23,073 nt of DNA, taken from positions 1-23,073 of the IMG/VR virus record IMGVR_UViG_3300032006_001718, one strand, 5' to 3'. The notes below the pieces were generated by a model. It was not told the DNA's origin. It ran no database searches and saw only the letters and a program-made list of their open reading frames with translations. A program made the translations under genes and the position numbers. The DNA comes from a virus. Numbering within the stretch: position 1 is the stretch's first letter; each line of letters starts with the position of its first letter. Of the stretch, positions 1,053 to 23,073 are shown in pieces.

Positions 1053-1445
1053 CTATGGGGTTAAAGTTTTTAGAAAAACACCGTAATCTGTAATGTAGTC
1101 TTCAGGATTATGCTCAGTAGAGCATATCGACATTAATATGTCTTCGCCAGTTTGATATACCTGTGAGTCCCACACCATATTCTCGACAAGGACGCCATCG
1201 TTTTCTTTCAGGGTCACTTGCTCTACTCTGTTTCCATAATCTAGTTCCACTAGTATGCTACCCTTTATACATATAAGAACCTGCCTGTTCTTGTAGTGGG
1301 CGTGCTCTCCCCTGCGAGACCCCTTGGGGACATCTTTGACATAGAATATCCTCTTAGGAATAAAGGGTATATTTTTTTCCATGACAGTTAGCGATCCACG
1401 TTCGCTACTGTGAACCTCTGTCAAGTAGTCCTGAGTCCAACGCAT
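1053..1445 (-). CDS. fdtA/qdtA: dTDP-4-oxo-6-deoxyhexose 3,4-ketoisomerase (FdtA/QdtA, WxcM-like cupin)
   Basis: This small cupin isomerises dTDP-4-keto-6-deoxyglucose to the 3-keto sugar, the step before 3-amination in dTDP-Fuc3N or dTDP-Qui3N synthesis. The sequence follows the family throughout: an RGSLTVMEKNIPF opening, KRIFYVKDVPKGSRRGEHAH with the paired catalytic-type histidines of the HAH motif, a QVLICIKGSILVEL cupin strand, and the closing DYITDYGVFL. At 130 residues it matches the usual family length. I chose the ATG at 1445 because AAAGGG (1455-1460) is 9 nt upstream; a longer TTG start at 1454 would touch that site directly. The start lies inside the aminotransferase gene by 41 nt, so the two enzymes of consecutive steps are translationally coupled. 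Which epimer (fuco or quinovo) is made cannot be read with confidence. Confidence 0.88.
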   Translation of the reverse strand: MRWTQDYLTEVHSSERGSLTVMEKNIPFIPKRIFYVKDVPKGSRRGEHAHYKNRQVLICIKGSILVELDYGNRVEQVTLKENDGVLVENMVWDSQVYQTGEDILMSICSTEHNPEDYITDYGVFLKTLTP

Positions 1446-2346
1446 ATTTTGCAACCCTTTCGATTTCTAATTTTGTAAGGTTTTCATGGAATGGCAAACT
1501 AACCGTTGAATGCGATTCCTTTTCGGATTTCAGCATGCTTTCGCTAGGTTGATGAACCTCGGACTCTGCAAATGCTGGCTTGCCGTGACAATGTGCGTAA
1601 TGCACCCCACACTGAATTCCGTTACTTTTCATGTACTGCATGAACTCTTTATTGTTCCTGACTCTGATTCTATACAGATGCCTACTTTTATTATTATAGC
1701 CTAAAGTCCTATTATAGGCACAGCTTATTTCATCTAAAATGTCATTTTTCTGGTCTATTTTTTTTAGGTTCTCGTTAGCGACAAATGCCTGTATAGAGTT
1801 GCAATGCATCTTGTATCCCGCGACCGTGTGTTTCCGGTCCCAATTGTCCATTGCGAAGCTGGTACCATTCATTGTCATGGTTTTATAATATTCTATTAAG
1901 TCTTTGTTGTTAGATACCACAATTCCCCCGTCGCACCCGCTAACTGGCTTGGTTGGATAGAAACTAAATATCACCACGGCGTCGTCGTTCTTTAGATCTT
2001 GATATTGGTTTCTCCTGACCTCTTGTGCTGAATCAAAAATATTGTCGTGAAGATGGTAGCAGTGCCCAACCCAATCCGTATCGTTATAAAATCTAACTTT
2101 ATTCCCAGACGTTACTATAGCGTTTGGCACAACTATGGGCATAGTGCTAGGTATATCTATAATCTCTTTGTATTTGAGTAGCGATAAGAACAAAAGGCTG
2201 GATGCACTGTTGGCAGTGCATGCATACTTGGCCCCAACGTACTCGGCAAAATTATCTTCTAGCTCGCATACCACCTCGTCGTGTAGGAGGTGCGTAAAAT
2301 TCGCTGTATCTATTTTAAGCTGTGGTATATTGAATAGTTCAACCAT
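1405..2346 (-). CDS. fdtB/qdtB: DegT/DnrJ/EryC1-family PLP sugar aminotransferase (FdtB/QdtB-like)
   Basis: This is a PLP-dependent aminotransferase acting on keto-sugar nucleotides, here most likely aminating the 3-keto product of the adjoining ketoisomerase. Conserved points are the N-terminal block VGAKYACTANSASSLLFL (37-54), the PLP-binding D105 in FDSAQ, and the Schiff-base lysine K133 in SFYPTKPVSGCDGG (128-141). At 313 residues it is clearly shorter than the roughly 370-400 usual for the family. The missing part is mostly between VRFYND and HDNIFDSAQ, where typical members carry about 35-40 residues, so this is a trimmed version with the active site kept. The ATG at 2346 is 3 nt after the preceding stop. 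The substrate is assigned from gene context; the family as such is clear. Confidence 0.87.
   Translation of the reverse strand: MVELFNIPQLKIDTANFTHLLHDEVVCELEDNFAEYVGAKYACTANSASSLLFLSLLKYKEIIDIPSTMPIVVPNAIVTSGNKVRFYNDTDWVGHCYHLHDNIFDSAQEVRRNQYQDLKNDDAVVIFSFYPTKPVSGCDGGIVVSNNKDLIEYYKTMTMNGTSFAMDNWDRKHTVAGYKMHCNSIQAFVANENLKKIDQKNDILDEISCAYNRTLGYNNKSRHLYRIRVRNNKEFMQYMKSNGIQCGVHYAHCHGKPAFAESEVHQPSESMLKSEKESHSTVSLPFHENLTKLEIERVAKYALDSGLLDRGSQ
1455..1460 (-). promoter_or_regulatory. Shine-Dalgarno site deciding the ketoisomerase start
   Basis: AAAGGG on the minus strand, 9 nt ahead of the ATG at 1445. The alternative TTG start (1452-1454) would have no spacing from it, so it favours the shorter 130-residue protein. 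Confidence 0.6.
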
Positions 2347-2349
2347 GTT

Positions 2350-3237
2350 TTAATCCAGTGTTTGTATATACTTTCTGGTTTTGTTATTGATGTCTCTTTC
2401 TACCCTTTTGATCCCAAAAATGTGGTCCCCGCAAGCCATCGCCTCCCGTGGGTGGCCAAACGCCGTCCCGACAGCGCTCTCTAGCTCTTTGTATCTCCTG
2501 TTTCTAATTAAATCAATAGCATCTATTTCTGGTATATCGCAGTATATATTCATCCACACCGTGGTCTGTGAGGCGTTGGAGTCAGTAAATATGTTATTGT
2601 ACAAGCTAAATAAGGTCTGCTCCTCGCTGCTGACTAGACTCTTGGGGAAATGCCGCTTGAACAGTTCCGATATGAGTTCAAAATCTTGCTTTTTAAAAAA
2701 ACTCCCCTCGTGGAATGACCAATAAAAGCGCCTTGGCTCTTGAAATACGTCTCTTAAGAATTGATGCTCGGCATTATCCATGTCTCTAGCCCAACTCTGA
2801 TAGCTATACATGCCACCTTCGCCGCTTGAAATCACTCTATGTACACCGGCGTCATGTTTGGCCAAGTGGCCCTTTAAACCTCTTCTTATGTATAATTGGT
2901 TGCTTGAGTTTAGAACGACCTTGTCGAACTCAAATTTCTCTTTTGCGAAGTCAAAGCTAGAGATAAACGCTTCTGTTAGCAGAACCCCCCGTTCGGTCAT
3001 CACGCTGCTTGGGTTTACAATTACGTTTTCATGTTCCATAGAGAAGAAATCTATCCCCTTCTCTTCAGACTCTTTTAAAAACTGTTCTTTAGTTGATCCC
3101 GATATATGGATAACAATGTATTCTTCATCAGACACAAATTTCTTAATATTTTGTATTTGATCCAAAACACACTCTGGACTGTGGCTAACGTTCAATAAGA
3201 ATAAATTTCTCATATCATCTACTAAAACTTTATCCAT
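2350..3237 (-). CDS. Unassigned protein of sugar cluster, possibly a glycosyltransferase
   Basis: This is a 295-residue soluble protein I cannot place firmly. The N-terminal part reads like an alpha/beta domain (LFLLNVSHS at 12-20, EYIVIHISGSTKEQFL at 39-54). The stretch VVLNSSNQLYIRRGL (107-121) and the later FYWSFHEGSFFKKQDF (residues about 172-187) recall GT14-like branching transferases, where a conserved residue set follows a similar HIS-type start. That resemblance is weak. No signal peptide or transmembrane segment is seen. The start is well supported by AAAGGAG 7 nt upstream of the ATG, and overlaps the preceding gene by 8 nt. Its place between the nucleotidyltransferase-HAD gene and the aminotransferase suggests that it uses or makes the same glycan. 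Confidence 0.6.
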   Translation of the reverse strand: MDKVLVDDMRNLFLLNVSHSPECVLDQIQNIKKFVSDEEYIVIHISGSTKEQFLKESEEKGIDFFSMEHENVIVNPSSVMTERGVLLTEAFISSFDFAKEKFEFDKVVLNSSNQLYIRRGLKGHLAKHDAGVHRVISSGEGGMYSYQSWARDMDNAEHQFLRDVFQEPRRFYWSFHEGSFFKKQDFELISELFKRHFPKSLVSSEEQTLFSLYNNIFTDSNASQTTVWMNIYCDIPEIDAIDLIRNRRYKELESAVGTAFGHPREAMACGDHIFGIKRVERDINNKTRKYIQTLD

Positions 3238-4282
3238 CGACGAACTCCTTTAGGTGGTCGGCGTTTCTAGGTAGGTTTATCGCTTCACAGGACGGGTATG
3301 GATTTGAGGTCGCAAAATCGTTTACAATAACTCTTTTCGCATGCGGTAAACCCATTACTAATTTGTGGTACTTAAGGCCCTCTTTTTGCAACTGCTCCTC
3401 TGTTACCTGCTTGTATTTCTCGGGTCGAGACGTTGTTAAAATAATCGTCGTCCTTCCCGTGTCATACAGTCTATTTAAAACATTAATATTTTCTGGCAGG
3501 CCGTTTGTTTCCCCCAAGAAAGGGTACATGTAGCTACAAGATGAGCCAACTATAACCCCATCTATATCAACAAAGAGTGTTTTGTATCGACCTCTGAACT
3601 TGTTCCAGTCATCCAGAGTTCCCCAGTCAGAAAAGTCGCACGCCCTTTTTAGCTTGAAATTCTCTCCACCCAGTAACATTGAGTGTATCACATGTGAAAC
3701 GTAGATGTTTTTCCTGTCTTTTATTAAGTCGTAGTACTCTAGATATTTATGAGCACTCTCAAATCCGTATAACCCACAGCAAAACAAATTGCTGATGACA
3801 TCTTTTTCTGCGATATTCACTATGTTGTTTTTATTGTCCGTTATCACATAGCTTTTGTTTCCGGCGTTGACGTGACCTACACTTCTTAAGTCTATCGCGC
3901 CCACGAAGTTAGTAGGCTCAACGTAAGAAGAAATGTCTGCCTTAAAGAAATTGTCGGAGTCTTTGCAGCAAATCGTCCCCTCCACCCCCGCCTTCTTGAT
4001 GGCCTTGGCGATTGTCTCAGGCTGGTTGTCCGTTGGCTCGTCGAGAACCACGAACTCAAACCTATCATCGTTAATACTGTGCGTTATACCTTCTATAAAT
4101 TGGTACTTGTCTACGTGTTGTTTCAAAACAACTGCGATAATTCTGTCCACGTCGGTTAAGTCAAGGCCAGCAATAGACTCCTGCAACATGGAGTTACCCG
4201 AAGGGTGTGTAAGCAGCCACTTTGGTCTCAAATTTGGAAATCTAGTTGATTGCCCGCAAGCGGGTATCATTAAGTTGAGCAT
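3230..4282 (-). CDS. Nucleotidyltransferase fused to HAD-type phosphatase
   Basis: This is a 350-residue two-domain protein. Residues 1-228 are a sugar/alditol-type nucleotidyltransferase: ACGQSTRFP (8-16) is the triphosphate loop, RPKWLL (19-24) carries the conserved lysine, DSD (108-110) is a likely metal site, and DFSDWGTLDDW closes the domain. Residues 233-350 are a HAD phosphatase: LFVDIDGVIV with D239 and D241, ILTTSRP as motif II, and VNDFA with N321 and D322 as motif IV. Such a pair would make an NDP-linked compound and remove a phosphate in the same pathway. The substrate cannot be read from the sequence. GAGG lies 5 nt upstream of the ATG, and the start overlaps the preceding kinase gene by 13 nt, which supports joint action. 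It does not look like a standard RmlA thymidylyltransferase. Confidence 0.82.
   Translation of the reverse strand: MLNLMIPACGQSTRFPNLRPKWLLTHPSGNSMLQESIAGLDLTDVDRIIAVVLKQHVDKYQFIEGITHSINDDRFEFVVLDEPTDNQPETIAKAIKKAGVEGTICCKDSDNFFKADISSYVEPTNFVGAIDLRSVGHVNAGNKSYVITDNKNNIVNIAEKDVISNLFCCGLYGFESAHKYLEYYDLIKDRKNIYVSHVIHSMLLGGENFKLKRACDFSDWGTLDDWNKFRGRYKTLFVDIDGVIVGSSCSYMYPFLGETNGLPENINVLNRLYDTGRTTIILTTSRPEKYKQVTEEQLQKEGLKYHKLVMGLPHAKRVIVNDFATSNPYPSCEAINLPRNADHLKEFVDG
3245..3251 (-). promoter_or_regulatory. Strong Shine-Dalgarno (AAAGGAG)
   Basis: AAAGGAG lies 7 nt upstream of the ATG at 3237 and inside the preceding coding region. It fixes that start over an internal ATG at 3213 and shows bacterial-type translation. 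Confidence 0.75.
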
Positions 4283-5097
4283 ATTTTCCTCATTAAAAAG
4301 TCTCTAGTTTTTTTACCCGTGGCATATGGGAATATTCTAATTAGATTGACAAACTCAAACAGGTCGTAGTAACTGTAAAAATTGTAATCTTTAAATTGCT
4401 TTACTATCTTTCTGTCGAGGTATTCTAGCGACAGGTCTATTTTGACTCTATCAAAGTCTCTCTCATATATAAACGCAGACCACCCATGTCTGGTGTCTTG
4501 TCTGAGTTTTACTATGTCCATTATGGGGCTTTCTAAAAAGCTGTCTAAAAAATCTATCAGTACGATATCGTTGGAATTCGTACTGAACAGAATGTTTGAA
4601 AAGGTCAGGTCTCCGTGGCAGGGTCCGATTGGAATCTTTATCTTTTCCTGTAAATGTTTGTTGAGGATTTCTTCAAAAGGGACTCTAACGCTAGACGCCG
4701 CTGGGATCTTATTTATCACGGATTCAAATTTATCTACTATTACGCCTTTATCAAGCTCAACCATCTCGCTCGAATTTATATTTGATTCAACAAAAGAGCA
4801 CACCGTCTTTGAGATTTTGTCAAGATCCCCCTTGCTCGCCCTGTTCAAATACTCGATTACATTCAAGCAGGAAAAATATTCCATTGTTATGTGGCAATCC
4901 TTACTATCCGACTCACAAGACAACACCTCTGGTATCAACACACCATCGTATTTCATGGCCGCAAATTTCTTTTGCTTATTAGCCTGCTTTACAAGTCTTC
5001 CTATTGGGTATGAACCATTGGTTGATTTAATCACCCTTCCGTTGGATATAGTTATTTTGCAGCCAGAATATCCTGAGCAAACGGGCGCAGATAACAT
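4270..5097 (-). CDS. APH/choline-kinase-family phosphotransferase
   Basis: This 275-residue small-molecule kinase has the aminoglycoside phosphotransferase/choline kinase fold. The catalytic loop is HGDLTFSN (161-168, with D163 as base and N168), followed by the metal-binding IDFLDS (181-186; D182, D185). The N-terminal lobe has the expected pattern of glycine-bearing strands and a KQ-rich lysine segment (residues about 37-44), then a hinge-like ITMEYFSCLNVIEYL (70-84). The substrate could be an amino alcohol, a sugar or another hydroxyl compound. Immediately downstream, overlapping by 13 nt, is a nucleotidyltransferase-HAD fusion; kinase plus nucleotidyltransferase is the layout of LicA/LicC-type headgroup activation, so it may feed that enzyme. 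GGGAG lies 8 nt upstream of the ATG. An antibiotic-resistance role is unlikely in this setting. Confidence 0.8.
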   Translation of the reverse strand: MLSAPVCSGYSGCKITISNGRVIKSTNGSYPIGRLVKQANKQKKFAAMKYDGVLIPEVLSCESDSKDCHITMEYFSCLNVIEYLNRASKGDLDKISKTVCSFVESNINSSEMVELDKGVIVDKFESVINKIPAASSVRVPFEEILNKHLQEKIKIPIGPCHGDLTFSNILFSTNSNDIVLIDFLDSFLESPIMDIVKLRQDTRHGWSAFIYERDFDRVKIDLSLEYLDRKIVKQFKDYNFYSYYDLFEFVNLIRIFPYATGKKTRDFLMRKICST

Positions 5098-5150: not shown

Positions 5151-5891
5151 TTAGTTTAACTCCAAATAACAAATCCAAGTATAGTCTAATCGTTCCATAA
5201 AAAACTCTTGATACTGTAATGAACACAACTCTAGCACCAATGCCTTGGGGGTGGGATATTGCTCTTGGCTCCATTCGTCGCCCCATCTGGTTACTGGCGA
5301 AGCAAAGATAGGTGGCATTTCTTGATAAACTGAGACGTGCTCTTTGAAGAACTCCAAATCGGCATCATTTTTTTGCAAAATGGTTCTTTGGCCGTTGGAA
5401 TCGATGATATAATTTTGATTGCTCAGTACTTTTTTGGGAGTGTAGCAATCCCCTTGACTTGGTGGGTAATTGTCTTCGATTATGACCCTCTTCAGTCCCA
5501 GTTCTAAACATTTCTTGAGTCGCGGCATACAGTTTTGGTGGTCATCAAAAAACACTAATGTGTCGTCCTTGGGAAGGTCCGACCAGTCTGTATCCAAGAA
5601 ATCCTCTTGTTGATATTGTGCGTTAGGGCTAGTGTATACTCGAAATTCAGGTGCTGGGTCGATAGACACAATCTTCGTGTCAGGGCTGGCATGTTCAAAG
5701 AACCATGTGCCCAAACCTTTCCATACGCCGCTCTCAATGAGAACCTTGGGTTTCAATTGCTTGATAATATACCAAGCTGGAAACATGTGTGGAGATTTCA
5801 TTCCGCCGCTATTGTCTAAGATGGGCCGCCTAGAATACAGCTCTTTGAACTCTCCTAAGTGGGAAATTAGGTCTGTGTCTGTCCACTTCAT
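5151..5891 (-). CDS. SAM-dependent methyltransferase-like protein (CmcI/Methyltransf_24-like)
   Basis: This 246-residue protein has a class I methyltransferase-like core. Motif I is VLIESGVWKGLGTWFF (50-65), in which the usual E/D-x-G-x-x-x-G spacing holds, followed by IVSIDPAPE (75-83) with D78 as the expected ribose-binding acid. FFDDHQN (114-120) follows at the position where CmcI-like and Methyltransf_24 proteins place a metal- or substrate-binding acid pair. It would probably O- or N-methylate a sugar or a sugar-linked group. Its ATG overlaps the stop of the preceding methyltransferase as ATGA, so the two are coupled. The downstream gap of 53 nt is among the largest in the window. The fold is fairly clear; the exact family and substrate are not. 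Confidence 0.68.
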   Translation of the reverse strand: MKWTDTDLISHLGEFKELYSRRPILDNSGGMKSPHMFPAWYIIKQLKPKVLIESGVWKGLGTWFFEHASPDTKIVSIDPAPEFRVYTSPNAQYQQEDFLDTDWSDLPKDDTLVFFDDHQNCMPRLKKCLELGLKRVIIEDNYPPSQGDCYTPKKVLSNQNYIIDSNGQRTILQKNDADLEFFKEHVSVYQEMPPIFASPVTRWGDEWSQEQYPTPKALVLELCSLQYQEFFMERLDYTWICYLELN

Positions 5892-11705: not shown

Positions 11706-12571
11706 AGCTGCTCTCCAAGTTTTCCAAGCCGCTTGGCCGCATCTTCATTTTTTAGCAATCTGCATAGTCTGGCGGCCCTATTAACACAAGTATGCTTTCT
11801 TTTTATTTGTTGCTTTACCAGACTGCCTACATCCTTGTTTCCATCGTCATGAAAGAGTGACGCCAAAACCTTGTCAAGTGCCCCCTGCTGCTGCTTGTTG
11901 ACTCTTATCGACAATTTCTTTGCGCTTAGGGCGGCCTCGAAGAGTACCTGAGAAAACACTGTATTTACATCCGACGCTATCATAACTTCGTCGTATTTGT
12001 CGTACATGTTGCCCAAAGATTGCACATTGACTGTAAGATCAAACCCTTCTGCGTCACCCGACAATGACAATAGGTGATACGTGTCTTTGGAAGCGATTGC
12101 TCTTTTAACCAGATCGCTCATCTCTGTTGCCAGCACCGCCAAGTTTATTTTAAAATCAGGAAGGGGGTTACGAGGCAAGAAGATATCAACCGAAGGCCAT
12201 ATATTGACCATCTTTATCTTCTTGGTTTTGCTCTTGCAAAGAGAGTCGTGGTGGTTAGTAAACACGAACGGGATGTTCATCTTGTTGTCCAAAAAAACCT
12301 GTTCGATTGTTTGCAGCTCTTGATCATTTGCTCCCGTCACGTTTAACACGGTGCTGATTTTTTTATTTTGACTAAGATATTTAACAATGTCGTTGGTCAA
12401 CATTGCATAATGACTGATAAACACGTCTGGCTGGGCGGCGTCAAACATATCAAATGCGCTGACTTCGTTTGCCCATAGGTGTGCTGGGGTCTCGCACAGC
12501 TCAAGACACCTAGTGAAATACATCGGCTCAGTAGTTATGCCCGATGAATAGTTGTGTATCAGGGTCTTCAT
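11693..12571 (-). CDS. Probable GT-B-like glycosyltransferase, divergent
   Basis: This 292-residue protein starts MKTLIHNYSSGITTEPMYFT and shows the N-terminal pattern of GT-B transferases, including DVFISHYAMLT (49-59), a strand leading to a His. A middle strand reads TVLNVTGAND. The C-terminal half has YDEVMIASDVNTVFSQVLFEAALSA (split here as read), in the place where GT-B enzymes hold the acidic residue and EA pair that bind the donor. This is only a general resemblance and the canonical E-x7-E is not sharp. A C-terminal run of Lys/Arg-rich helix follows. It begins in a TAATG overlap with the upstream nucleotidyltransferase-like gene. I regard transferase as the best guess, not as established. 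Confidence 0.55.
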   Translation of the reverse strand: MKTLIHNYSSGITTEPMYFTRCLELCETPAHLWANEVSAFDMFDAAQPDVFISHYAMLTNDIVKYLSQNKKISTVLNVTGANDQELQTIEQVFLDNKMNIPFVFTNHHDSLCKSKTKKIKMVNIWPSVDIFLPRNPLPDFKINLAVLATEMSDLVKRAIASKDTYHLLSLSGDAEGFDLTVNVQSLGNMYDKYDEVMIASDVNTVFSQVLFEAALSAKKLSIRVNKQQQGALDKVLASLFHDDGNKDVGSLVKQQIKRKHTCVNRAARLCRLLKNEDAAKRLGKLGEQLCEQ

Positions 12572-13317
12572 TAGTCTTGCATCCTTTTCAGTGTTTTGAG
12601 GTTGTCCACCTTGCGTAGCGGCGTTTGATGATTGTTTAAAACTCGTATGTCGTGCTTGGAGGATAGTTCATTAATCGCCTCAAACACAAACCTGTTCTTA
12701 TATTCGGGATTAGACACTATAGAGTATATGGCTCTTATGATTTTTTCATTGGACAGATAAACCATCTCTGTCCAGTAGTTAAATTTCACCCCCAAAGAAA
12801 GTGTTTCTAGCCTGTTTTTTTGGTTGTGAATTACACCTACTTCAAATGAAGAATTAGAGCTTTCATCTTGCGTAACAATGGCTGATTGCTGTAGGTCTAT
12901 CATTTCCAAATGTGATGGATGTATCAATACGCTGCCACCGCATAGCAATATCTTATTGTTTGTAGTGTTGTTAATACATAGCCTAGTGCTTTCACAGCAA
13001 TTGGAATTGTAGTGTACTTGATTCTCTACCACCCTAATGTTTACATCAGAGTATTTATCCTTGACAAAGTTGACAATCTTCTCGGTTTCAAAACCAGAAC
13101 ACAATATTATTTCAAAGTTTAAAAATGCCGCCTGAATGGATTCTATCTGACGCTCAATGAGACTCCTTCCCCCAACCTGCACCAATGAAATAGGTCCATA
13201 AGACTTCATTCTATACCCATGATTTTCGCTTAACAAGACCACAGAAACCAAGTCTCCGCGCTCGTCCTTGCCAGTTTTGCTCTTGGGGCTAGTTATATAT
13301 TTCTTATTTCGTTTCAT
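12571..13317 (-). CDS. Nucleotidyltransferase-fold protein lacking key catalytic motifs
   Basis: This 248-residue protein has the layout of a MobA/RmlA-like nucleotidyltransferase: a first strand VSVVLLSENHGYRM (24-37), then LVQVGGRSLIERQIESI (45-61), which matches the L-x-x-VxGxPLLxRxI segment, and EIILCSGFETEKIVNFV. However, the usual AAGxGxRM loop reads LLSENHGYRM, the conserved PK is GPISL (41-45) with no lysine, and the GDxxx metal position is LCGGSVLI (125-132) with no aspartate. It therefore looks inactive as a nucleotidyltransferase, or uses other residues. An N-terminal Lys-rich stretch (1-19) precedes the fold. The start overlaps the gene before it by 14 nt. It may be a partner or regulator of a transferase. 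Confidence 0.65.
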   Translation of the reverse strand: MKRNKKYITSPKSKTGKDERGDLVSVVLLSENHGYRMKSYGPISLVQVGGRSLIERQIESIQAAFLNFEIILCSGFETEKIVNFVKDKYSDVNIRVVENQVHYNSNCCESTRLCINNTTNNKILLCGGSVLIHPSHLEMIDLQQSAIVTQDESSNSSFEVGVIHNQKNRLETLSLGVKFNYWTEMVYLSNEKIIRAIYSIVSNPEYKNRFVFEAINELSSKHDIRVLNNHQTPLRKVDNLKTLKRMQD

Positions 13318-19318: not shown

Positions 19319-20878
19319 TTATATTTCGTGAATTTTTTCTATAATAAAGGAACTGTCCTTTTCTACGGAACCGCAGAATAGTAAATTGTTGCCCTCGTAC
19401 AATATGTATTGATGTTTTTCTCGGGCTTCTGGGAAGACAACAACACTATCCAGTGAGCATGTTTCGTCTTCTATTGTCAGAAAGGCCATTGTTTTTCCCT
19501 TTGTCTTGCCCTTTTTTACCTTGTAGTTAGCAACCCTGTTTACGTTGGCGGCCACACAAATCCCCTTGCCAGTCTTGCCGTTTGTAATATCTTTACAAGA
19601 CGTATTAGCAGTAGACGTGTCAGATGACTCAATACGAGCAAGTGACACCGGGCACCCTAAAAACTTGGCCTCCTGCTCAATGATCCATGCGGGATCGTCA
19701 CTCAAATCATACGGGGGATTGTCTAACATCTCTGCCTCATTTGAAACAATTTGGCTTCGTTCTACCTTACTGGTTCCGCCACCCATTTTCTTTACAGGGG
19801 CAAGGTCGCGGAAGCAGTCAGACATTCTAGACCATTGTTTATCTGGGTAATTCTTTGTGACCCAGTTAACCTCTGCTTTAGTCAACTCTCTAAAAATAAG
19901 ATACTCGTACAGGGCCTTATTTCTAGAAACATTAGCCTCCTTCGTAGAGAAAAACCCAATTGAGCAAAGGGCCTTGAAGGCGGTCGCATTAATTCTCGGA
20001 GACAGATAGATTACTATGTCCAGCCAGCTAAATTCTTCTGGCTTTTTTCCAAGTTCTTTTTTTGTGTCTGCTATTGCTTGCATAACCTTGTCTCCGGTCA
20101 CGCCTGTCAAAGACTTGATATCCTTGATACCGAATTGTATACTTCTGCCGTACAGCTTGAATTTCTCACTAAACCTAGACAGATTAGGTATTTTGACTTC
20201 CAAATTGAAGAGCTTAGCTTCAGACAACAGCTCATAGACCTCTTGGTGGGGGTCTTGCTTGTCAGCAGCATGAAAGAAGTACGACAAGAAGAACTCCTTG
20301 GTGTGATTAGCCTTGTACCATGCTGACCAATAGGAATTGATAGCATAAGCCACAGCGTGAGATTTATTAAAAGAGTATCTAGAAGACTTTTCAATCCAAC
20401 TAAAGATCTCTTTCGCCACATCATTGTTAACCAAGCCTGCGGACTGAGCGCCCTCTAAGAACGACTCTCGAACTTCAGCCATGAGTCCAGCCTTTTTCTT
20501 GCCAATGGCCTTTCTGAGTATGTCGGCTTCTTGAAGATCAAACCCAGCGATTTTTTGGGCAATACGCATGGACTGCTCTTGGTATACCAGAACCCCATAT
20601 GTGGGGCTTAAGATTTCCTCAAGAGACTCATCTAGATAGGTCACCTTGTCTTTTTTGCTCTTACGATCAACATAGTGCTGGGTCATGGATTTGCCTTCAG
20701 ACATGGCTTTCAAACACCCCGGCCTGATCAGGGCAATTAATGCTGCTAGTTCTTCAAGATTATTGGGCGACACTTTTTTAGACCACGACTTCCCAAGGTT
20801 GCTTTCTAATTGAAAGACCCCTTTGGTTCGTCCGTTTTTGAATAAGTCCCAAGTCTTGTCGTCTTTGTAATCAATCAT
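19319..20878 (-). CDS. dnaE: DNA polymerase III alpha subunit, C-terminal fragment of split gene
   Basis: This 519-residue protein continues the polymerase core of the upstream fragment. It opens MIDYKDDKTWDLFKNGRTKG and then VFQLESNLGKSW, equivalent to E. coli 'IPLDDKKSFDML...VFQLESRGM'. Following conserved blocks are LAALIALIRPGCL (44-56), SPTYGVLVYQEQSMRIAQ (91-108), LRKAIGKKKAGLM (121-133) and YSFNKSHAVAYAI (168-180). A helix-hairpin-helix-like zone lies in the middle, and an OB-like module (about 425-519; GICVAANVNRV, TMAFLTIEDE) ends the protein. There is no tau-binding C-terminal domain. All three catalytic Asp are in the other fragment, so this part cannot act alone. Its start overlaps the preceding nuclease gene by 8 nt and has no strong Shine-Dalgarno, so reinitiation is likely. 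Confidence 0.92.
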   Translation of the reverse strand: MIDYKDDKTWDLFKNGRTKGVFQLESNLGKSWSKKVSPNNLEELAALIALIRPGCLKAMSEGKSMTQHYVDRKSKKDKVTYLDESLEEILSPTYGVLVYQEQSMRIAQKIAGFDLQEADILRKAIGKKKAGLMAEVRESFLEGAQSAGLVNNDVAKEIFSWIEKSSRYSFNKSHAVAYAINSYWSAWYKANHTKEFFLSYFFHAADKQDPHQEVYELLSEAKLFNLEVKIPNLSRFSEKFKLYGRSIQFGIKDIKSLTGVTGDKVMQAIADTKKELGKKPEEFSWLDIVIYLSPRINATAFKALCSIGFFSTKEANVSRNKALYEYLIFRELTKAEVNWVTKNYPDKQWSRMSDCFRDLAPVKKMGGGTSKVERSQIVSNEAEMLDNPPYDLSDDPAWIIEQEAKFLGCPVSLARIESSDTSTANTSCKDITNGKTGKGICVAANVNRVANYKVKKGKTKGKTMAFLTIEDETCSLDSVVVFPEAREKHQYILYEGNNLLFCGSVEKDSSFIIEKIHEI

Positions 20879-21353: not shown

Positions 21354-22024
21354 ACGTACATTTTCCCATCGGCAAATGCCTTTTCAAATTTCATGTTGCG
21401 ATACACTGCCCTACGAGACTTTTGCAGCTTAATGAATATATTGGCGGTGTCCTTAACATCTTGCAAGGCGTCGTGGGCGTTTTCTGAAGACAGTCCCATG
21501 CGTTCTCTTAAGGAATCCATACTGATAGACTTCACGTCTGGATCGCCCTCGGTCCACAACCACACATCATCCATAACATCAATCTTATAGATTTGATGGA
21601 ACAGTTTTTGGCATTCCCTCTTGTCATCCCAAGGCCCGTATTCTTTACACAGTCTGTCTACGATCTTCATATCATATCCAATGATATTAAATCCAGCCGG
21701 AATGGGCGCAAAGTAGGGCGTACCTTTCCAGTTGTATTTATTAACAAAAGTGATGAACTTTTTCCAGACCCCCTTCGGAAGTGGTGCTTTGGCTAAGCCT
21801 GCCCTAGTCTTATTGGTAATCCTTAATGCCTCGTCCTCTACGGGGTCTACTCCGGCTTTGACTGCTTTCTTGTCGTCGAGGATAGGACGCATTTCACTAT
21901 TAAACTGACCCTTCAGCTTAAAGTTCCTGCCATCTAGGGCGATAGCGGCGATTTGCGTAGGTTGACACTTCAGCGGGTTACGACCGCCAGTTTCAAAGTC
22001 AAACATAATAATATCTCTGTTCAT
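21350..22024 (-). CDS. dnaQ: DnaQ-like DEDDh 3'-5' exonuclease
   Basis: This is a 224-residue proofreading-type exonuclease. All five catalytic residues are visible: D9 and E11 in FDFETGG (8-14), D118 in AGFNIIGYDMK (110-120), and H184 and D189 in AHDALQDVKDTA (183-194), which makes it the DEDDh (DnaQ/epsilon) class. FNIIGYD is the ExoII-type motif. Length is near the catalytic core of E. coli epsilon. It starts in an ATGA overlap with the polymerase N-fragment, with AAGGA 7 nt upstream, and is placed between the two halves of the polymerase, so it most likely acts as their editing subunit. I see no clear clamp-binding motif, but this is hard to judge by eye. Confidence 0.92.
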   Translation of the reverse strand: MNRDIIMFDFETGGRNPLKCQPTQIAAIALDGRNFKLKGQFNSEMRPILDDKKAVKAGVDPVEDEALRITNKTRAGLAKAPLPKGVWKKFITFVNKYNWKGTPYFAPIPAGFNIIGYDMKIVDRLCKEYGPWDDKRECQKLFHQIYKIDVMDDVWLWTEGDPDVKSISMDSLRERMGLSSENAHDALQDVKDTANIFIKLQKSRRAVYRNMKFEKAFADGKMYV

Positions 22025-23073
22025 ATGATTTCCTTTATCTTCATAATCTTGTCTAGGAGGTTGATCCCCAAGACATCAAATTTAACATGACCCAGTGCTT
22101 CTAGGTCGGCCATTTCCAATCCCGCAATTTTCTCTCCACCGCTTCTTTGGTTTACCATGGGGCAAACTGTGTTAAGTTCATCAACTGAAATCACAACACC
22201 TGCCGCATGTTTGCCTTGGGTTTTGAACGTGCCCTCTATTTTGATAGCTTGATCAAAGAAGTCAGCGTAGTCTCCGTCAAGCTCTCCTCTATCATTGACA
22301 AAGCAGTAATCTCTAAGGTCTTCTGGATTGTTGATTAACGCCCACCTGATGATCGAGCGGTCCTCTTCGTCCATCTCTTGTAGCTGATCAGAAATGTCGG
22401 CCTCGTTCGGGATGGCCTTTGTGATTTCGTTCATTTCGCTAAATCCACACGCGCTGTTGACGCGCAGTACCTCTTTTAGCGCACTCCTTCCCTGAAGTCT
22501 TCCGAATGTAAGCATCTGGCTCACGTTGCCGTGGCCATAAGTGTCTTTGAGGTAGGAGATAATCTCGTCACGCTTGTTGCCGGGTACGTCCATGTCAATA
22601 TCTGGTAGGGATATGTGGCCACCAGTGTTTCTTCCACTATTATAGAACCTCTCAAACAATAAGTCAAACTCAATTGGGTCAATTTTAGTGATGCCGATCA
22701 TATAAGAAACCAGACACCCAGCAGCAGAACCCCGCCCCGGACCTGATAGCCACCCTTGCCTGTTAACATAATCTACAATGTCCTGCACAATTAAAAAATA
22801 CCCAGACAAGTTAGCCTCAAAAATTACATCCAGCTCCTCTTTGATCCTGTTTGCGTATCTATTTTTTTCCGCCTCGTCGTCTACCTTTCCGCTTGGGATC
22901 ATCTTGTCTTTCCATCCATCCCTGCAAAGCTGTGTTAGGTGTTCATTTTCACCAAGCCCGTTGGGTGTGGGAAATTTTGGAAGCATTGGCTTGTTGAGTA
23001 TGTTGTAGTTATCGCATTTCTCGTATATCTCATCAAATTTTCCAATCTGCGGGTCTAGCACGATAACTTCGGA
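22021..23073 (-). CDS. dnaE: DNA polymerase III alpha subunit, N-terminal fragment of split gene, 5' end cut by window edge
   Basis: The last 350 residues of the upstream part of a DnaE-type replicative polymerase are present; the frame runs open through the edge, so the real start and the PHP domain lie outside. Visible blocks: GWLSGPGRGSAAGCLVSYMI (107-126 of the visible part), the catalytic LPDIDMD (156-162; D158 and D160 correspond to E. coli D401 and D403), YGHGNVSQMLTFGRLQGRSA, and HVKFDVLGINLL (329-340), where D333 is the third catalytic Asp (E. coli D555). The chain then stops at IMKIKEII, whereas E. coli DnaE continues into the fingers. The stop overlaps the exonuclease ATG as ATGA. 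The GTG at 23061 is internal, not a start. Confidence 0.93.
   Translation of the reverse strand, partial: SEVIVLDPQIGKFDEIYEKCDNYNILNKPMLPKFPTPNGLGENEHLTQLCRDGWKDKMIPSGKVDDEAEKNRYANRIKEELDVIFEANLSGYFLIVQDIVDYVNRQGWLSGPGRGSAAGCLVSYMIGITKIDPIEFDLLFERFYNSGRNTGGHISLPDIDMDVPGNKRDEIISYLKDTYGHGNVSQMLTFGRLQGRSALKEVLRVNSACGFSEMNEITKAIPNEADISDQLQEMDEEDRSIIRWALINNPEDLRDYCFVNDRGELDGDYADFFDQAIKIEGTFKTQGKHAAGVVISVDELNTVCPMVNQRSGGEKIAGLEMADLEALGHVKFDVLGINLLDKIMKIKEII

Follow-up and report, generated by a model that had tools for sequence, protein, structure and literature searches.

The analysed stretch of DNA, positions 1 to 23,073 of the virus record IMGVR_UViG_3300032006_001718 (23,073 nt; hereafter the window), carries a block of replication genes, encoding DNA polymerase III alpha in two open reading frames (ORFs), an exonuclease and an SSB-like protein, followed by a series of genes for glycan synthesis. 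The latter, all on the minus strand, encode three group-1 glycosyltransferases, a GT2-like protein, SDR enzymes, a methyltransferase, a DegT-family aminotransferase and an FdtA-like isomerase. They surround a gene pair encoding an APH-fold kinase and a fusion of a nucleotidyltransferase (NTase) with a HAD phosphatase domain (Table 1). The ORF coordinates bear out a 13-nt overlap between the two genes, as claimed by an earlier sequence-only reading of this DNA. The gene on the other side of the fusion encodes a protein that matched no family in the Pfam scan and is perhaps a glycosyltransferase, judging from its sequence; a relative of this gene adjoins the pair in L076/L156, as does a weak relative in L087. 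Neither RNA families nor tRNAs were found in the window, no LicD model was matched among the window proteins scanned, and PADLOC, a set of anti-phage defence models, gave no match for the kinase or the fusion.

Table 1. Features of the kinase/NTase–HAD locus and adjacent genes in the window
Feature	Positions	Strand	Basis and remarks
APH-fold small-molecule kinase	4270..5097	-	275 aa; Pfam APH, AlphaFold2 model, fold matches
Kinase catalytic loop HGDLTFSN, residues 161-168	4594..4617	-	alignment
NTase (N-terminal) and HAD phosphatase (C-terminal) fusion	3230..4282	-	350 aa; ORF, full-length relatives, fold search
Overlap of kinase and fusion genes, 13 nt	4270..4282	-	coordinates
NTase domain, about residues 1-232	3587..4282	-	4evw match at residues 3-232
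HAD domain, about residues 233-350	3233..3586	-	motifs; homologous stand-alone HAD in phage clusters
Next gene beside the fusion	2350..3237	-	295 aa; 8-nt overlap with the fusion
DegT-family aminotransferase	1405..2346	-	Pfam DegT_DnrJ_EryC1, E 2.6e-30
FdtA-like isomerase	1053..1454	-	Pfam FdtA, E 4.6e-32

Elsewhere in the window, the two DNA polymerase III alpha ORFs (19319-20878 and 22021-23061) are separate and correspond to a finger part and a catalytic part, with the exonuclease and a 160-aa ORF without assigned function in between. A split Pol III core is known from some jumbo phages (PMC7824862). A 248-aa protein encoded at 12571-13317 is NTase- or GT2-like and scored 17.3 bits with Glyco_tranf_2_3, below the cutoff of 27.

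The kinase matched the Pfam APH model at 29.6 bits, above its cutoff of 23.2, and possesses both the Brenner motif HxDxxxxN and an IDxxD motif. The corresponding motifs HGDLTFSN and IDFLD are kept in its relatives, and alignment of 18 sequences revealed that H161, G162, D163, L164, F166 and N168 are invariant. Its AlphaFold2 model (pLDDT 87, pTM 0.85) gave maltokinase and APH(2'') as the best fold matches, with Z-scores of 15–18, maltokinase being nearest in a near-tie with APH and LicA (Z 15.5 for LicA). Maltokinase phosphorylates its substrate at the anomeric carbon. The sequence-only reading had described the enzyme as APH/choline-kinase-like; the first half of this description holds, whereas the Pfam Choline_kinase model reached 22 bits against a cutoff of 29, and membership of that family was rejected.

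In the Pfam scan, no model exceeded its cutoff on the fusion and the HAD matches were weak; the alignment of PHROG family phrog_3980 spans both halves. The structure closest to the NTase half is 4evw, a nucleoside-diphosphate-sugar pyrophosphorylase from Vibrio cholerae, which was matched by profile (E 9e-7), by Foldseek (E 2.4e-15) and by the fold of the AlphaFold2 model (VIA Z 23.0, 2.8 Å, 219 residues, 20% identity). Other fold matches include inositol-1-phosphate cytidylyltransferases and LicC, the latter with a Z-score of 19.4 among many at 19 to 21. The signature motifs GxSxRF..RPK, KDSD and DWGT are present in the window, and residues G10, S12, R14, P20, K21, D108, D110 and D219 are invariant in 22 sequences. 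Several familiar assignments for this half were tried and rejected. The fusion matched no model of RmlA, the glucose-1-phosphate thymidylyltransferase, and contains a HAD part besides; the equivalog model of HddC was not matched either, the only matches of this kind being weak ones to AglF (23.8 bits, cutoff 400) and plant-AP; and the Pfam family of CMP-sugar synthetases was not listed for the NTase half at E 0.01. The sequence-only reading would have been refuted by evidence that close homologues are ordinary RmlA or DNA-end-processing enzymes; our searches found no close homologue of characterised function.

The C-terminal half of the fusion displays DIDG (motif I), TTSR (motif II) and ND (motif IV), three of the motifs of a HAD phosphatase. 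Thus, profile and fold for the NTase together with motifs I, II and IV for the HAD domain confirm the proposed NTase–HAD fusion. Among 22 aligned fusions, D239 and D241 of motif I, T284 of motif II, R317, and N321-D322 of motif IV are invariant. A conserved motif III lysine was not recognised; the invariant R317 could stand in for the Lys/Arg of this motif. The AlphaFold2 model of the fusion (pLDDT 83, pTM 0.68) is weakest at the HAD end, an end on which the fold search is hardly informative. One might suppose that the HAD domain is structural or inactive and that the pair amounts to a plain kinase and NTase, given the unrecognised lysine, the lack of a HAD domain in three related loci (see below) and a known parallel: the HAD-homologous C-terminal domain of CMP-sialic acid synthetase, which has no known phosphatase activity (PMC8636478). 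An inactive scaffold, however, would need none of the motifs DxDG, motif II T and ND, which are kept in all 22 fusions, and we consider this supposition unlikely. As to the kind of phosphatase, weak matches of the HAD domain to HAD_PNKP, HAD_SAK_2 and phrog_415 would suit the processing of nucleic acid ends by an enzyme of the polynucleotide kinase/phosphatase type. None of these Pfam matches reaches its cutoff, the kinase and NTase have APH and RmlA folds, respectively, and the surrounding genes are for glycans, which leaves this function a negligible chance. Membership of HAD_PNKP itself was rejected: of 20 members, 10 gave weak matches at most, and the window had none listed.

Scans of viral contigs with the single sequence of the window fusion or kinase gave no matches, and alignments were required to recover the relatives of both. 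A two-sequence alignment of the window fusion with its relative in Marine virus AG-345-E15, in which the fusion is 43% and the upstream kinase 29% identical, seeded a viral scan that yielded 46 loci, most with a full-length fusion. Scans with the kinase and with a wider fusion alignment yielded 80 loci each, on partly shared contigs. Full-length fusion relatives share about 34–52% identity. Bacterial loci came from one genome scan (four) and from phylum surveys (two more, L062 and L063), in which nearly all genomes were without the cassette; plasmids contained no relatives of the fusion. The 210 loci in total, partly from the same contigs, fall into 63 groups at 85% identity. The profile search for further fusions and their neighbours, which the sequence-only reading had suggested, thus revealed that the cassette is not peculiar to the window: 62 groups have a kinase gene upstream of that for the NTase, the exception (L048) being truncated at a contig end. 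The two genes overlap in 54 of these 62 groups, by varying lengths, and lie within about 120 nt of each other in 59; in L070 and L227 they are separated by other genes. Furthermore, pairwise distances of NTase and kinase are correlated, with a Mantel r of 0.855 that none of 2000 permutations equalled (best 0.31). Since genome-wide shared descent raises such a correlation, it supports a joint function rather than proving it. The kinase frame at L225:2211-2995 is interrupted, falling into two fragments with a single in-frame TGA, next to an open NTase–HAD frame.

The glycan setting recurs among the relatives. Of these clusters, L231, located on a 210-kb contig, is closest to the window and has in common with it the GT2-like gene (74% identity), the gene at 5151-5891 (66%), the DegT aminotransferase near the pair (49%), the methyltransferase (47%), the fusion (46%), the FdtA-like isomerase (40%) and the kinase (36%); a relative of the isomerase also lies near the pair in L062. 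Altogether, these data support the kinase and fusion as a conserved unit in neighbourhoods of glycan synthesis. Of the 57 groups with room for such a gene, 22 have an SDR of the epimerase/dehydratase type directly behind the fusion, as is characteristic of one large phage clade. No SDR stands there in the window and its nearest relatives, and the idea that the SDR belongs to the cassette as a constant third gene was accordingly rejected: it holds in one large clade and fails in the clade of the window. In the MAG of a Sedimentisphaerales bacterium (L050:1-9053), the translations place the pair just after flagellar hook-associated-like genes and glycosyltransferases, as if it might serve flagellin glycosylation.

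The domains are also arranged in other ways. In L081, L085 and L094, the NTase stops at about 237 aa without a HAD domain and a class I/II aminotransferase adjoins, which indicates that the phosphatase is dispensable in some loci. Nearby are genes for a SPASM radical SAM protein (L081 and L094) and for NeuB and a 2-hydroxyacid dehydrogenase (L085 and L094). Similarly, HAD-less kinase–NTase pairs at L229:7723-14143 (minus strand) and L230:8307-11624 are in operons that also encode an aminotransferase of class I/II and a SPASM radical SAM protein, and the L229 region contains NeuB and 2-hydroxyacid dehydrogenase genes too. In the bacterial locus L063 and in L070/L233 and L071/L232, the NTase signature GxSxRF..PK is lost from the paired NTase, whose neighbourhood includes an intact NTase along with another HAD. 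The degenerate NTases (L063:7824-8792, L070:5945-6673 and L071:3878-4582) are perhaps pseudo-enzymes retained as partners of the kinase. An NTase with a kinase-like C-terminus occurs in the similar phages L001, L007, L047 and L233, accompanied in the first three by a stand-alone HAD, a homologue of the fused HAD domain; at L001:14803-17034 and L047:3280-5520, the stand-alone HAD, a cupin and this NTase make up a second set. Profile comparison of this NTase–kinase family with the window-type fusion was not significant, and with the kinase it aligned the catalytic loop alone, at a probability of 75%. L026 and L031 encode a further kind of fusion, HAD–NTase. Given these other fusions and the nearby replacements of the same functions, we read kinase, NTase and phosphatase as parts of one pathway.

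In two bacterial loci (L049:5905-8004 and L051:5875-8013), the kinase lies C-terminal to a flippase-like LPG_synthase_TM membrane region of about 300 aa. Such a protein might suggest that the kinase targets a hydroxyl which is lipid-linked or close to the membrane, with the NTase–HAD fusion serving the same lipid-linked glycan. However, all the phage kinases recovered and the other bacterial kinases are short (about 250–310 aa) and lack this region, and the cassette kinase model matches the kinase region of the two proteins weakly; we judge this variant very unlikely.

The structures and neighbourhoods enable us to propose that the pair is probably an activation cassette that provides the phage's glycosyltransferases with an NDP-linked building block. 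The kinase would phosphorylate a small hydroxylated substrate at the expense of a nucleoside triphosphate, the HAD domain would strip one phosphate, and the NTase domain would join the remaining phospho-compound to an NMP. The resulting NDP-linked block would then be used by the phage's own glycosyltransferases. This proposal draws on the linkage and parallel divergence of kinase and NTase, on the catalytic motifs kept in all three domains, on an NTase fold of the sugar- or alcohol-phosphate kind, on the glycan-synthesis surroundings in the window and its relatives, on the SDR behind the fusion in a large clade, and on the other fusions and nearby replacements described above. Weighing against it are the near-tie of the kinase Z-scores, the HAD-less loci L081, L085 and L094, the unrecognised motif III lysine, the HAD part being the weakest in the model, and the lack of an adjacent SDR in the clade of the window. 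The sequence-only reading had already considered an NDP-linked glycan block plausible; conserved linkage, glycan context and NTase fold bear this out in part, and the set of kinase, phosphatase and NTase fits such an activation. Linkage, folds, motifs and glycan context are observations; the substrate, the nucleotide, the order of steps and the activity of the HAD domain are our inference.

For the order of steps, we tentatively prefer a heptose-like one, in which a sugar phosphate would be phosphorylated again at C1, the HAD domain would remove the original phosphate, and the NTase would make the NDP-sugar. Here the phosphatase is required, and maltokinase is the closest fold match of the kinase; since the Z-scores nearly tie with APH and LicA, this order is put forward as one possible course. 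Its main rival resembles LicA/LicC. The kinase would phosphorylate a free alcohol (an amino alcohol or polyol), the NTase would convert it to a CDP-alcohol, and a phospho-alcohol rather than a sugar would be transferred; the HAD domain would merely release this alcohol from a metabolic phosphate, or else remove side products. The kinase and NTase folds also match LicA and LicC, the NTase matches inositol-1-phosphate cytidylyltransferases as well, and the aminotransferase beside the HAD-less relatives speaks for the same order. Yet the fold scores tie with many families, the Choline_kinase score is below cutoff, such an order gives no clear reason for a fused phosphatase, and the SDR next to the pair in many phages fits an NDP-sugar better. 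We therefore regard the LicA/LicC-like order as rather doubtful. On the preferred activation reading, the cassette may further represent an unrecognised nucleotide-activation route that has a kinase, a phosphatase and an NTase of its own and would make an NDP-linked monomer outside the known pathways, mainly in phages that alter surface glycans; we offer this as a speculative extension.

A kinase and an NTase–HAD fusion that no curated model names are kept together in 62 of 63 phage and bacterial groups, pointing to a pathway open to assay with two purified proteins. The product of the cassette would reveal the sugar or alcohol that these phages place on a surface, and the identity of a surface glycan bears on phage-altered host recognition or the exclusion of rivals. 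No description of an NTase–HAD–kinase cassette was found in the literature searched, a body that lacked most subscription papers. Phage clusters that remodel surface glycans (PMC7824862) and the NTase–HAD fusion as such (PMC8636478) are already known.

Among known systems, the 4evw chain, for which we found no paper describing the substrate, has no HAD domain, unlike the fusion. LicA and LicC bring together an APH-like kinase and an NTase whose fold is that of the NTase in our pair; to our knowledge, the known LicA/LicC pair has no HAD domain. CMP-sialic acid synthetase is not known to require a kinase. It does join an NTase to a HAD-homologous domain in one chain and in the same order as the fusion (PMC8636478), so the claim of the sequence-only reading that the domain fusion has no precedent was too strong; on the criteria applied here, the pair is distinct from LicAC, RmlA, HddC and DNA-repair enzymes. 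In Campylobacter jejuni HS:5, an NTase followed by an SDR makes CDP-6-D-glucitol, a nucleotide-linked open-chain sugar (PMC10918830); unlike the cassette, this two-enzyme path has no reported kinase or HAD, and the window has no adjacent SDR. Cyanophage surface-glycan clusters encode SDRs along with numerous glycosyltransferases for making and transferring NDP-sugars; the kinases named there are of the PfkB type and the NTases of the HIGH type, in contrast to the APH kinase and NTase–HAD fusion of the cassette (PMC7824862). Separate HddA- and GmhA-like genes occur in some cassette phages, as read from their sequences. Heptose kinases have GHMP or PfkB folds, unlike the APH-fold kinase of the cassette. 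Nevertheless, the activation of GDP/ADP-heptose by HddA or HldE, GmhB and HddC shares with the cassette the full set of kinase, phosphatase and NTase, to which many cassette relatives add an SDR.
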